A model generated the notes under the pieces. That model was given only the letters and a program-made list of their open reading frames with translations. It was not told the origin of the DNA and ran no database searches. Of a stretch of DNA of 42,354 nucleotides, positions 1-42,354 are shown piece after piece. Position numbers and translations under genes: made by a program. Numbering within the stretch: the first letter of the stretch is position 1; every line of letters begins with the position of its first letter. Origin of the DNA: a virus; the IMG/VR virus record IMGVR_UViG_3300045996_000529, positions 1 through 42,354 of that record. One strand, 5' to 3'.

Positions 1-127
1 CACAAGGGTGTCCCCATAGCCAGGGGCTTCACGCGGAAACGGGGAACCGTCGATACCGTGAAGGCAGAAAAGGGTAACCTATGGAACAACGCCAACTGGA
101 CTCTATACGCCGCCTAACCCCACCCCC
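1..127. repeat. terminal direct repeat, left copy
   Basis: Bases 1-127 are identical to 42228-42354. The end of the window therefore runs back into its start, and the sequence is a closed circle of 42227 bp or a circularly permuted linear genome. A repeat of exactly 127 bp is the usual overlap left by a short-read assembler with k=127, so it need not be a biological terminal repeat. Confidence 0.97.
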
Positions 128-15350: not shown

Positions 15351-17023
15351 TGGCAAACTGGGAAAGCGCACCCGTTGTCCAGCAAGGGCACGGTGGCGGC
15401 AAATGGCAGGAAGCGCCCGTAGTGGACGCGCCGATGAAGCCGGGCACTCGCGAATACGCCGATTGGGCGCGCGATCAGGCTATGGCTGGAAAGACGCTGC
15501 CACAGGTTAGCGACCCGAAGTTCACCGAGACGCAGAGCAGCCTCCTAGATCCATTCGTGCAGGGCGTGACGTTCGGATGGGGCGATGAGCTTCGCGGCGC
15601 TGTGCAGGGCGGAATTGGGGCATTGCAGGGCAAAGACTTTGGTGACGTGTACGCACGCACCATTGATGAAAGCCGCAACGCCCTTGATCACGAACGCCGC
15701 GTCAACCCCATCGGGTCGCTCGCTGCGGAAGTCGCGGGCGCGATCCCAACCGGAATGGGCCTTGGCGGGCAGATCGCTGGTCGCGGCGCTACTCTAGGCG
15801 CCCGGGCATTGTCCGGGGCTGGCGTGGGCGCTGCGCAGGGTGCAGCCTATGGCGCTGGGGCGGCAGAGGACGATGAGCGTCTACCTGGCGCTGCCCTCGG
15901 GCTTGTCACAGGCGGGGCCATTGGTGCTGCTGCCCCGTATGTCGGCGCGGCAGCACGCCGCCTCGTCACCCCAGCCCCAGCATCGGCCTCTCAAAATGCG
16001 GCGGCACGAGTGATGCAACAGGAGGGCGTGACCCTTTCGGCTGGGCAGCGCACGGGCAGCAAGAAACTGCAATATGCCGAGTCCGAACTTGGGGGCACCG
16101 CCGCTGATGCTCTTATGGAGCGCCAGTCGGAAGAGTTTACCGCTTCGGTTCTCCGTCGCATTGGGGTCAATGGCAACCGCGCCGAACCCGCTGTCATCGA
16201 CGCCGCCTATGACGCTATCGGTAACCAGTTCGACAACCTTGCCGCTTCTACCAATACTCCCTTTGACCCCACGCTTCAGAACAACCTGCTCGGTGTCGCT
16301 GCGGACTATGTAGACACAGCCGCCACCCCGGCTCCGGTTGTTGAGCGCATGGTCAATCGTCTTGGCGACCTCGCCCGGGCGAACGGTGGGCGCATCACTG
16401 GAGAAGTCTATCAGGAGGTTAGGTCTACGCTAGGCCGCCTCAGCAAGAGCGCTGATCCCGCGACCCGGGCGGCTCTCCGAGACCTACAGGACGCGCTAGA
16501 CGACAGCGTTGAACGCAGCCTAGGCGGGCCAGCATTGGAAGCGTGGCGGAATGTGCGCCGAGCCTATCGCAACTTCCTCGTGGTGGAACGCGCAGTCACG
16601 TCAGCAGGTCAGAACGCCGCCTCCGGGCTCATAACCCCGGCACAGTTGCGCGGCGCAGCTATCAACCAGAACCGCCGAGCGTTCGCCCGGGGGAACAATG
16701 ATTTCACCGAACTAGCCAATGCTGGCGTGCAAACCATGACGCCCCTGCCACAGTCCGGTACGGCTCCGCGTGCTGCTATCGGAGCGGTCAAGGCAGCAAT
16801 GCCATTTATCGGGGCCACTATAGGAGGCGGCGGCACGCTCGGCATGGGGGCACTCGCTGGCGCTGCCGCAGGGGCACTCGCGCCGGCCGCTATCGGGCGG
16901 GCCCTGCTGTCAGGCCCCGGGCGCAGGCTGGCAGGCAATCAATGGGCAGCGGGGCCGCAGCGCGGCGTTGTTGAAGCTCTAATGAGCCGCGGCGCCCCCG
17001 CTATCGCAGGCAGGCGCGACTAG
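15350..17023 (+). CDS. putative DNA ejection protein with glycine-zipper segments
   Basis: A 557-residue protein. It begins with a tail-like repeat (WESAPVVQQG, WQEAPVVDAP). Residues 110-200 contain long G/A runs with small-residue spacing (GLGGQIAGRGATLGARALSG; GAALGLVTGGAIGAAAPYVG), and another such block lies at 475-520 (IGATIGGGGTLGMGALAGAA). These look like membrane-inserting glycine zippers. The middle is helical and charged. This architecture is common in large phage ejection proteins that form a conduit through the inner membrane. Its stop overlaps the stop of a minus-strand gene within the palindrome CTAG at 17020-17023. Confidence 0.7.
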   Translation: MANWESAPVVQQGHGGGKWQEAPVVDAPMKPGTREYADWARDQAMAGKTLPQVSDPKFTETQSSLLDPFVQGVTFGWGDELRGAVQGGIGALQGKDFGDVYARTIDESRNALDHERRVNPIGSLAAEVAGAIPTGMGLGGQIAGRGATLGARALSGAGVGAAQGAAYGAGAAEDDERLPGAALGLVTGGAIGAAAPYVGAAARRLVTPAPASASQNAAARVMQQEGVTLSAGQRTGSKKLQYAESELGGTAADALMERQSEEFTASVLRRIGVNGNRAEPAVIDAAYDAIGNQFDNLAASTNTPFDPTLQNNLLGVAADYVDTAATPAPVVERMVNRLGDLARANGGRITGEVYQEVRSTLGRLSKSADPATRAALRDLQDALDDSVERSLGGPALEAWRNVRRAYRNFLVVERAVTSAGQNAASGLITPAQLRGAAINQNRRAFARGNNDFTELANAGVQTMTPLPQSGTAPRAAIGAVKAAMPFIGATIGGGGTLGMGALAGAAAGALAPAAIGRALLSGPGRRLAGNQWAAGPQRGVVEALMSRGAPAIAGRRD

Positions 17024-23340: not shown

Positions 23341-23415
23341 CTGGGCGTGGCGCAGTGGTAGCGTGCCGCACTCGGAATGCGGAAGTCGCGGGTTCGATCC
23401 CCGCCGCCCAGACCA
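23341..23415 (+). tRNA. tRNA-Pro(CGG)
   Basis: Acceptor CTGGGCG pairs with CGCCCAG, with discriminator A and an encoded CCA. Anticodon stem CCGCA/TGCGG with loop CTCGGAA gives anticodon CGG, which reads CCG. T-arm GCGGG-TTCGATC-CCCGC is perfect. The D-arm is short. Confidence 0.92.
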
Positions 23416-23455
23416 ACCTCCAACACCAACGAAATTGGTGACGCACTAAGCCCGT

Positions 23456-23529
23456 ATCGGCTTGGTGTAATGGTAGCGCGTCGGCCTCCAAACCCGAAAG
23501 CCTGAGTTCGATTCTCAGAGCCGGTGCCA
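23456..23529 (+). tRNA. tRNA-Trp(CCA)
   Basis: Acceptor ATCGGCT pairs with AGCCGGT (one U-G), discriminator G, encoded CCA. Anticodon loop CTCCAAA gives CCA, tryptophan. The anticodon stem TCGGC/CCCGA has a C-C mismatch next to the loop. T-arm CTGAG-TTCGATT-CTCAG is perfect. It is interesting because the phage attP is itself a tRNA-Trp fragment, with a different sequence. Confidence 0.85.
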
Positions 23530-23545
23530 ATCCCACAGCAATCAC

Positions 23546-23623
23546 TTCCGGCAGGCGAGCAAGGTGCACGCGGCGACCTGTTAAGTCGATTTTAGGCTGG
23601 TTCGATTCCAGCGCCGGGAACCA
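23546..23623 (+). tRNA. tRNA-Asn(GTT)
   Basis: Acceptor TTCCGGC pairs with GCCGGGA (one U-G), discriminator A, encoded CCA. Anticodon loop CTGTTAA gives GTT; the stem GCGAC/GTCGA has a mismatch in its outer pair. T-arm GCTGG-TTCGATT-CCAGC is perfect. D-arm and variable region are a little long (78 nt). Confidence 0.85.
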
Positions 23624-23624
23624 C

Positions 23625-23698
23625 TCTCCATTCGTTCAATGGTAGGACGCCGCGCTCTGAACGCGGTAATCGCGGTTCGAATCCCCGATGGAGAACCA
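23625..23698 (+). tRNA. tRNA-Gln(CTG)
   Basis: Acceptor TCTCCAT pairs with ATGGAGA, discriminator A, encoded CCA. Anticodon stem CCGCG/CGCGG with loop CTCTGAA gives CTG. The T stem CGCGG/CCCCG has one mismatch. It begins one base after the CCA of tRNA-Asn. Confidence 0.88.
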
Positions 23699-23699
23699 T

Positions 23700-23773
23700 T
23701 CCCTCTTCGTCTAGCGGTAGGACCGCGCACTTTGACTGCGCAGAGCGTGGTTCGAATCCACGAGAGGGAACCA
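23700..23773 (+). tRNA. tRNA-Gln(TTG)
   Basis: Acceptor TCCCTCT pairs with AGAGGGA, discriminator A, encoded CCA. Anticodon stem GCGCA/TGCGC with loop CTTTGAC gives TTG. T-arm CGTGG-TTCGAAT-CCACG is perfect. With the previous gene, both glutamine codons are covered by the phage. Confidence 0.9.
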
Positions 23774-25944: not shown

Positions 25945-27015
25945 TCACTTCGCGTTCCCCATCTGCACCACATTGCCGCGCGACTCGCGCAGGGTTTCTT
26001 GGATCACGTCGCCCATTTTCCGCAACAATTCGCGACGGTCGGCGCTCATCCCGTAGAGCCCGGAAACCGACTTCGGCCCATGCCCGAGCAGATGACGGGT
26101 TTGCGTCTCGTCAAAGCCCGCTGCCTCTAGGATCGTCGCTGGCGTGTGACGCAGGCCGTGGAACGTCACGCCCTCGTCAATGCGCCCGGCCTTCACCAGA
26201 GCGTCTCTGTGGCGCTGGAAAGCCGTCTTGAGCCCTTCGTAGGTCCAAGGCTTCCCATCATCCTTGACGCAGATGGTGGTGCTATCGTTTTTCGGGATGC
26301 CGTCGAGTATCCAGCGCAGGTCTTCACAGACAGGCAGAACGACGATCTTGCGCGTCTTCCCTTGCACGACTTCCATAAACGCGCCCTTGTCCGCCGACTT
26401 GGACAGTATCGCCACGTCGCCAAGCCGCAGGCCGGTATAGATCGCCACGGCGATTGCGGGCTTCAGGTGCGCCGGAGCTGTGTCTATCAGCGTGTTGGCC
26501 TCAGTGGGAGAGCAGGGGCGGTTGCCGCGCTTGTTCCCGCCCGTCGCCTTGCTGATGCCGTCAGCTGCGTTGGTTTTGACGAAGCCGTACTCCTTGCCAT
26601 AGGCCAGCACCATCTTGAGGCTGGTCACTACCTGGTTGGCGAATTTCGGCTCGTGCTGATCTCGCGCACGATCCCGCACCTTGGCAACAGCCGGGGCGGT
26701 GATCGTCACAAGCGCCGCGTCAACTTCCTTCCCCAACCATGCGAAAACCCGCTCATAATCTTTGCGCGTTCGGTCACGTAATGCTCGCCAATGGTTTGAT
26801 TTTGCCTTATATTCGGCAATCAGCATTCGGAGCGTTCCGGCCTTTGCCTTCTGGGGCAAGTGGAGCGCATCGAGGCGGGCGACTTCGGCGGCCAACGCGG
26901 CGCCGGATAGTTTCAGGTCGATGGCAACCGATGGCGCGCCCTTGCGTCGATAGTACCGGCGCAGCGTTCCATGCCGGTCCCGGTATTCCTTAATGCCCAC
27001 GACCCGAACCCGCAT
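25945..27015 (-). CDS. int: tyrosine recombinase integrase
   Basis: A 356-residue phage integrase; ATG at 27015 is preceded by GGGGAGATGGAAG. Residues 1-50 are the arm-binding part (EYRDRHGTLRRYYRRKG), 60-155 the SAM-like core-binding domain, and 165-330 the catalytic domain. Catalytic residues are visible: R197 in YTGLRLGD, a lysine at 220-223 (GKTRK), H286 and R289 in HGLRH, H312 in LLGHG and the nucleophile Y321 in SGLYGMS. It should recombine the attP at 25816-25860 with a host tRNA-Trp gene. The Xis-like gene overlaps its start by 26 bases. Confidence 0.93.
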   Translation of the reverse strand: MRVRVVGIKEYRDRHGTLRRYYRRKGAPSVAIDLKLSGAALAAEVARLDALHLPQKAKAGTLRMLIAEYKAKSNHWRALRDRTRKDYERVFAWLGKEVDAALVTITAPAVAKVRDRARDQHEPKFANQVVTSLKMVLAYGKEYGFVKTNAADGISKATGGNKRGNRPCSPTEANTLIDTAPAHLKPAIAVAIYTGLRLGDVAILSKSADKGAFMEVVQGKTRKIVVLPVCEDLRWILDGIPKNDSTTICVKDDGKPWTYEGLKTAFQRHRDALVKAGRIDEGVTFHGLRHTPATILEAAGFDETQTRHLLGHGPKSVSGLYGMSADRRELLRKMGDVIQETLRESRGNVVQMGNAK

Positions 27016-27220
27016 CTTCCATCTCCCCGAACCCTCTGACGGGAACGGATTGACGGAGCGTATCGAGGTAGGCGTCAAGCGCCTCTTTGTCGTAGCGCAC
27101 ATTAGAACCGAAGTTGACAGGCGGAACGGCGACGTAGGATTTGAAGCCGTTCACTGATTTGAAGCCGCAATATTCCGCCGCTTCGTCCGCCGTGAGCATG
27201 CGTTTCGCCGGGGCTACCAT
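26990..27220 (-). CDS. small HTH protein, excisionase-like
   Basis: A 76-residue protein (ATG at 27220; a TTG at 27247 is also in frame). MLTADEAAEYCGFKSVNGFK, then YVAVPPVNFGSNVRYDKEAL fits the HTH_17/winged MerR-like fold of phage excisionases and small DNA-binding proteins. It overlaps the start of the integrase gene, so the two are made together. It probably directs integrase toward excision by bending attachment-site DNA, as known for Xis proteins; this is an inference from fold and position. Confidence 0.68.
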   Translation of the reverse strand: MVAPAKRMLTADEAAEYCGFKSVNGFKSYVAVPPVNFGSNVRYDKEALDAYLDTLRQSVPVRGFGEMEDAGSGRGH

Positions 27221-41681: not shown

Positions 41682-41863
41682 ACTGCCGCTTCGTCAGTTT
41701 TGTCTGTTTGGTGCTGCTTATCCCCGTGGCCTTGCCGCTGGCTGGCCTCGGGCTTGCCCTCCGTCTCGCGGGGAGTGCCCTTTTGTGGCTGTCCGCTTGG
41801 TACGTCGAAGGCGTCGATTTTGTGGACCGTCTCCTCTCGGGAGGTGTCACCCACAAAGAATAA
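41678..41863 (+). CDS. small membrane protein
   Basis: A 61-residue protein starting with GTG in a GTGA overlap. It has two hydrophobic segments (VSFVCLVLLIPVALPLAGLG; LRLAGSALLWLSAWYV) and a short polar end. It is the last gene before the non-coding junction region. Not recognised. Confidence 0.6.
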   Translation: MNCRFVSFVCLVLLIPVALPLAGLGLALRLAGSALLWLSAWYVEGVDFVDRLLSGGVTHKE

Positions 41864-42354
41864 GGGCCCCCGACCTGCAAAGTCGGGAAGCCCCAAATCC
41901 TCGGTCTGGTTGGAGATCATCCGAGGCACGCAGTGGTACTATCATACCGCACAGTGGAGCGCAAGCGAATGAACCCCAATCCGAGTGCCCGGCCTCAACA
42001 AGCGTACGGGAAACAAAAACACCAGATGAGCGTGACCCATAGCTCGCTGGGCCTTCACAAGCCGGGCAACCCCCGGAACGGTCCTGAACTCGTTGCGTGT
42101 CTTCCCGGCGTGGCTGCTGTGGGTAAAGCGCGAAGAGGTCGCCAGCCGTACGAAATGGCGACGAGGCACGAGCGTTTTGTGGCGTTCGAAGGGGTTCACC
42201 CCGAAAAGGCACTGAGTATGCGCACCTCACAAGGGTGTCCCCATAGCCAGGGGCTTCACGCGGAAACGGGGAACCGTCGATACCGTGAAGGCAGAAAAGG
42301 GTAACCTATGGAACAACGCCAACTGGACTCTATACGCCGCCTAACCCCACCCCC
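41864..42354 (+). ncRNA. candidate large structured RNA across the circle junction
   Basis: This stretch continues at 1-152 (about 516 nt in the circle) and holds no convincing gene. It has many perfect or near-perfect hairpins: 41864-41893 (CCCGAC/GTCGGG inside GGGC/GCCC), 41899-41926 (CCTCGG/CCGAGG), 41933-41950 (GTGGTA/TACCGC), 42049-42084 (GGGCC/GGTCC enclosing CCGGG/CCCGG), 42138-42162 (GTCGCCA/TGGCGAC), 42191-42202 (GGGG/CCCC). A frame of 123 codons is open but has no ribosome site and odd composition. Large ornate phage RNAs (GOLLD, ROOL) have similar size, but I cannot match their sequence. Confidence 0.5.
42228..42354. repeat. terminal direct repeat, right copy
   Basis: Identical to 1-127; see the left copy. 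One of the two should be counted when the circle is closed. Confidence 0.97.

Follow-up and report, generated by a model that had tools for sequence, protein, structure and literature searches.

The window analysed here, which is the whole 42,354-base stretch of IMG/VR virus record IMGVR_UViG_3300045996_000529, carries a 127-base direct terminal repeat at its ends. A homologous contig of 42,571 bases (L070) has an exact terminal repeat that is also 127 bases long, and this identity of length suggests that the contig closes into a circle of some 42,227 bases; the repeat itself looks like the k-mer overlap of an assembler rather than biology. Between two rightward genes lies a region that a preliminary description, made from the letters alone, had presented as non-coding from 41864 to 152 and as encoding a large hairpin-rich RNA across the circle junction. 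The RNA that is conserved lies wholly within the window, at 41856–42301, and what follows (42302–152) comprises the ribosome-binding site and an ATG at 42308 with which a reading frame opens.

No protein coding was found within 41856–42301 by codon score, by the positions of substitutions or by frame integrity in homologues. From 41864 to the window end, a codon-usage score trained on the genome gave none of the six frames a positive value, whereas it was positive over most of the neighbouring genes. In the best pseudo-frame, differences among homologues were spread evenly over the codon positions (29, 32 and 31 at positions 1, 2 and 3 between the window and L067), and the frame was disrupted by stops and indels in homologues. 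The earlier claim that the region holds no convincing gene is borne out by the codon score and the equal codon-position changes. Homologues that conserve a frame, which the same description had named as the finding that would count against an RNA, were looked for and not found; base pairs were conserved instead.

Seven homologues of the window RNA were identified, all on IMG/VR contigs, giving a family of eight members with lengths of about 440–490 nt. An IMG/VR scan that used short pieces of the region, translated through an open but meaningless frame, retrieved L067, L068, L069 and L070, and scans with exact DNA patterns added L076 and then L095 and L093, the last a very divergent member with a profile match at E 1e-10. 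Two separate covariance models, of the core and of the 3′ part, recovered L070, L076, L095 and L093 at about E 1e-19 or better; as the models were built from the same members, this recovery is a consistency check and not an independent discovery. BLAST of the RNA against named phages and plasmids gave no real match: a 27-bp match in Rhodobacter phage RcDormio lay inside a gene and Mycobacterium matches lay inside the terminase, and both were set aside as chance. Among 84,980 genomes of bacteria and archaea, scanned once, there was likewise only a single chance match. Among the pattern matches, L075 was rejected as lying inside a coding frame, and for L077, L078, L079, L091, L092 and L094 profile support was absent or only at E 0.08–8. 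The family is thus rare in the collections searched, with exact patterns reaching only fairly close relatives. Neighbouring genes had no tblastn match in named phages, which indicates that there is no cultured relative.

Structure at this locus is proven by comparison alone. As a single sequence, the 505 bases from 41850 to 42354 fold no better than shuffles (MFE z −0.28 on the + strand and −0.98 on the − strand), an unremarkable energy attributable to the GC-rich DNA; the hairpin richness put forward earlier as evidence does not exceed what DNA of this composition would give by chance. By contrast with shuffled columns, the consensus fold of five members reached −253 (−191 ± 6.5 after column shuffling, z −9.6) and contained 23 double-changed pairs (8.8 ± 2 in column shuffles). 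Across all eight members, the curated helices had 766 of 782 cells paired and double changes in 57 of 101 pairs, and in a control, arms taken from different members paired in only 67%. Curation favours pairing, so the count was repeated on an alignment made by MAFFT from sequence alone; on it, the revised structure gave a covariation of 0.293 (shuffled 0.135 ± 0.014; none of 500 as high) and slid structures scored at most 0.112. G-U pairs outnumbered A-C pairs by 39 to 4, identifying + as the transcribed strand. Gathering homologues and looking for covarying pairs, as had been proposed, therefore yielded strong covariation behind a complex fold, as in a large structured non-coding RNA. The ordinary single-sequence fold and a 123-codon frame open in the window are what a coding region or chance GC-rich hairpins would have in their favour; equal codon-position changes, the broken frame in relatives and the strong covariation refute this reading, whose probability we regard as negligible.

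One architecture, of about 17 helices with the invariant loops GUGACCCAUAG, GGCAACCCC, CUGAGUAUGCG and UAGCCA, is common to all eight members (Table 1), its variable 5′ domain being formed by hairpins P1–P3. Judged from the curated helix list and column counts, the helices first proposed at 41869–41887, 41899–41926, 41933–41950, 42138–42162 and 42191–42202, and in the left copy at 12–26 and 39–50, recur with compensatory changes, and that at 27–63 is the local pairing of strands S2 and S3. For 42049–42084, the inner hairpin (P8) recurs, but the outer GGGCC/GGUCC pairing is unchanged in seven members, missing in the eighth, and in competition with P6 and S1. Helices P9, P14 and P14a of our first consensus were dropped in favour of Px, which takes up those bases and shows true covariation. 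The P6 loop (CCAUA) could also pair with the start codon (UAUGG), but no covariation supports this.

Table 1. Features of the conserved RNA and its 3′ edge (window positions)
Feature	Positions	Strand	Evidence or remark
Whole conserved RNA, 446 nt, AAGAAUAAGGG to GCAGAAAAGGG	41856–42301	+	Seven homologues, alignments, covariation
P1 hairpin; outer 41864–41867/41890–41893, inner 41869–41874/41882–41887	41864–41893	+	32/32 and 39/39 curated cells paired, 7 double-changed pairs
P2 hairpin	41899–41926	+	47/47 cells paired, 4 double-changed pairs
P3 hairpin	41933–41950	+	44/46 cells paired, double changes in 6/6 pairs
P5 helix 41988–41991/42007–42010	41988–42010	+	31/31 cells, 2 double-changed pairs
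P6 helix, loop GUGACCCAUAG invariant in 8/8	42022–42050	+	5 double-changed pairs jointly with P8 (alignment A2)
Strand S1 GCCUUCAC, pairs with the distant S3 in long-range helix P7	42051–42058	+	98.4% of cells paired, 3 double-changed pairs, 1/500 shuffles as high
P8 hairpin, conserved loop GGCAACCCC	42062–42076	+	39/39 cells, 2 double-changed pairs
P10/P10a/P10b compound stem	42089–42137	+	11 double-changed pairs
P11 hairpin	42138–42162	+	55/55 cells, 2 double-changed pairs
P12 hairpin	42169–42188	+	47/48 cells, 5 double-changed pairs
P13 hairpin	42191–42202	+	35/35 cells, 3 double-changed pairs
Invariant CUGAGUAUGCG, mostly unpaired in the model	42212–42222	+	Same in 8/8 members
P14b hairpin	42222–42238	+	100% of cells paired, 4 double-changed pairs (alignment A5)
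Px hairpin, loop (A/U)UAGCCA	42239–42253	+	100% of cells paired, double changes in 3/4 pairs
Strand S2 CUUCACG, pairs locally with S3 in competition with S1	42254–42260	+	90.6% of cells paired, 2 double-changed pairs
P15 hairpin ACGG-GGAA-CCGU	42266–42277	+	31/31 curated cells, double changes in 4/4 pairs
Strand S3 CCGUGAAGGC, common to two exclusive helices	42283–42292	+	Covariation and forced-fold energies
Shine-Dalgarno-like AGAAAAGGG (AGAAAGGG in L093)	42293–42301	+	Conserved in 8/8
(CU)AUG start and reading frame, past the junction to 389 (left copy 81–389)	42308–42354	+	CUAUG invariant in 8/8; products differ
RNA 3′ end present again as part of the 127-base terminal repeat; no additional gene	1–74	+	

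At the 3′ edge, S3 runs directly into AGAAAAGGG, which is followed 6–7 nt later by the invariant CUAUG, so that in every member the RNA ends as GGCAGAAA(A)GGG-N-CUAUG, with the ribosome site GAAA(A)GGG at start-codon spacing. The frame that opens at this AUG is short and variable: it has 9–25 codons in six members, is longer in the window and is an HNH_3 gene in L067. In the window it runs over 42308–42354 and then 128–389, in phase with a further ATG, at 153, for which a separate AGGAG site is present, and the gene may have two starts. In L067, a 155-aa HNH_3 endonuclease gene (L067:1857–2324) starts exactly at the AUG of the RNA. Behind this gene AGAAAAGGG..CTATG, the ribosome site with its AUG, occurs once more, an arrangement that would fit the insertion of a homing gene after the RNA.

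In having a structured RNA immediately before a start codon, and in L067 an HNH gene behind it, the family recalls HEARO and the omega RNA of IscB. The model for that family is unmatched, however, and the HNH_3 gene occurs in only one of the eight members; no IscB-type gene follows the RNA in the other seven, which have short or unrelated frames. The L067 gene looks like a small homing endonuclease that was inserted together with a duplicated ribosome site, and not like IscB.

Comparison with Rfam 15 by cmscan, as first suggested in the preliminary description, matched no family even at permissive thresholds. For the window RNA no credible match was obtained at E ≤ 10, the sole line being an antisense RNA on the opposite strand, far under its own threshold; L069, L093 and L095 had no match at E ≤ 5, and seven loci had none at gathering scores. 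Models of GOLLD, ROOL, HEARO, group I and II introns, RNase P and tmRNA were all unmatched. The early suspicion of a new class is supported by the covariation, the seven homologues and the lack of an Rfam relative, and we consider it close to certain that the RNA encoded at 41856–42301 (+) belongs to a hitherto undescribed family of large, structured RNAs from uncultivated phages.

The likeness to GOLLD and ROOL that had been drawn holds in that this is a large ornate phage RNA; kinship with either is not supported at E ≤ 10 or E ≤ 5, and both were set apart by covariance model and by context. ROOL is a homo-octameric RNA cage. It resembles the present RNA in being large, phage-encoded and highly structured with many helices; it differs in that its Rfam model is unmatched here, tRNA islands are not near, and a conserved ribosome site with AUG and mutually exclusive helices are present. 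GOLLD shares with our family a large size, occurrence in phages and a well-conserved portion joined to a more variable 5′ portion; our RNA, at about 446 nt, has another conserved core, gives no match and lacks nearby tRNAs, whereas GOLLD members are often >800 nt and lie near tRNAs (PMC12286853). An invariant ribosome site and start codon are not among the features described for GOLLD or ROOL. The window RNA is not GOLLD, ROOL or HEARO.

The association with tRNA-bearing phages that had been invoked did not extend to the locus, tRNA islands not being adjacent to the RNA: the tRNAs of the window are about 18 kb away, the six other records as fetched had none, and L093 had one about 1.5 kb downstream (ARAGORN); no tmRNA was found by ARAGORN. 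Nor was a sigma-70-type promoter or a conserved upstream motif found in three regions scanned, and no terminator of its own was seen for the RNA. These absences weigh against a free-standing, abundant trans-acting RNA in the style of ROOL or GOLLD, cut or ending near 42301, that would form an RNA particle or RNA–protein complex during phage growth, and for such an RNA the ribosome site and AUG, invariant at the 3′ edge in all eight members, would be superfluous. Conservation of the RNA while the downstream gene is not conserved speaks for a trans role, as do the size, helix number and invariant loops, which are like those of large ornate RNAs (PMC12286853). We regard this reading as the main rival of the leader set out below, and as only somewhat less probable. 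Large ornate phage RNAs form homo-oligomers (PMC12286853), and within a trans role strands S1, S2 and S3 might mediate oligomers through strand exchange.

These three strands form two helices that exclude each other, by which the RNA may be a large molecular switch. S3 is complementary both to S1, 230 bases upstream, and to the nearby upstream S2, and alignment columns 489 and 490 in S3 covary with both, so that two mutually exclusive pairings are conserved. In L095, S3 has changed from GUGAAGGC to GUGGAGGC, with S1 as GCCUCCAC and S2 as CUCCA; in L093, S3 is CUGACGGC, S1 is CCGUCAG and S2 is CGUCA, one of the two S3 changes lacking a matching change in S2. When either state was forced, the folding energies of S1:S3 and S2:S3 differed by 0–2.4 kcal/mol in seven members and by 4.5 kcal/mol in L093. 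Predicted ensembles had each state well populated in several members, L095 and L093 leaning strongly toward S1:S3; in the window ensemble the majority formed neither a complete S1:S3 nor a complete S2:S3. From these models and two independent change events, we read S1/S2/S3 as a probable conserved bistability.

Two mutually exclusive helices beside a ribosome-binding site are also found in riboswitch-type leaders, from which this RNA differs in being far larger and in having no known ligand core, no constant downstream gene and no predicted masking. The predicted exposure of the ribosome site or AUG was barely and inconsistently different between the two states, so the models lend no support to a switch that simply masks the ribosome site.

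Where a contig extends far enough to show it, the RNA follows early or replication genes that the members share (a methyltransferase, a RusA-like resolvase and a replication-initiation-like protein), and in five members the stop codon of the preceding gene falls within a few bases of the RNA 5′ edge. The large terminase gene (TerL) lies 2.6–4.7 kb downstream in the five members where it was mapped, and TerL is diverged among members (24–31% identity). Covariance-model searches of 45 records found through TerL yielded nothing convincing, and in all 46 records with close TerL relatives showed no copy of the RNA. Because close TerL relatives are without it, it is the early module, and not the terminase, that the RNA accompanies.

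The short distance to TerL in the five members checked would suit a packaging or replication element, either an RNA with a role like that of phi29 pRNA or a pac or ori site in the DNA. We judge this very unlikely, since compensatory changes and the G-U bias mean selection on RNA and not on a duplex DNA site, and since 46 records with close TerL relatives are without the RNA. A cis-acting antitermination leader, like the put RNA of phage HK022, would bind RNA polymerase and allow it to read through late terminators. Its expected place is the one seen, at the early/late boundary on the same strand, conserved despite diverged terminases, and such a leader would act whichever gene came next; it leaves the invariant ribosome site and AUG unexplained, and the cis antiterminators known to us are all far smaller than this 446-nt RNA. 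Antitermination thus seems quite improbable.

Hosts are likely to be Alphaproteobacteria, to judge from gene content: some neighbourhoods hold a GcrA-type regulator, and the nearest named terminases belong to Rhizobium, Bradyrhizobium and Acetobacter phages. In L070, the GcrA-type cell-cycle regulator (Pfam GcrA, E 3e-23) is encoded about 2.5–3 kb upstream of the RNA, next to a gene with a DnaA C-terminal helix-turn-helix domain, and similar proteins from L095, L068 and L093 cluster with it.

The best explanation as a whole, to which we give a probability of roughly 0.45, combines a new RNA family, alphaproteobacterial hosts and a switchable cis-leader of the late operon. The leader mechanism is the likeliest of several candidates, and we favour it only tentatively, from the invariant ribosome site and AUG, the neighbouring switch and the tight co-directional packing of genes. 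The RNA would be the 5′ leader of a transcript running from the early and replication genes toward terminase and the late genes. S3, lying upstream of the ribosome site, would alternate between S1:S3, which closes the large core, and S2:S3, a local hairpin. Entry of ribosomes into the downstream operon, or elongation of RNA polymerase into it, would then depend on the state of the core, which a ligand, a protein or translation might set. Against a leader stands the gene after the AUG, which is not conserved and often has only 9–25 codons, so that a single target gene is not indicated; against a switch, the S2:S3 covariation comprises two change events, and the modelled folds of L095 and L093 are strongly S1:S3. 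To our knowledge, leader RNAs are all smaller than 446 nt. The family also numbers only eight members. By analogy with an IRES, this ornate phage RNA could also be a translation-initiation module: its core would recruit ribosomes, or position them, at the built-in ribosome site and AUG whatever the gene context, and toggling between the two conserved folds would time late expression; we think this unlikely.

RNA families this large and complex are few, and most still await a function. The invariant start-codon module and adjacent three-strand switch make the function of this one testable. It adds a new RNA family from phages for which no cultured member was found, the novelty being at the level of the RNA family and not of biochemistry.

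Elsewhere in the window, five phage tRNA genes (Pro, Trp, Asn, Gln and Gln) lie at 23341–23773, four of them above the Rfam threshold and the Asn gene called by ARAGORN only. An integrase gene occupies 25945–27102. A 29-base repeat (86%) links a coding region at 15724–15752 with the 3′ half of tRNA-Pro at 23378–23406, and one of its copies may relate to an attachment site.
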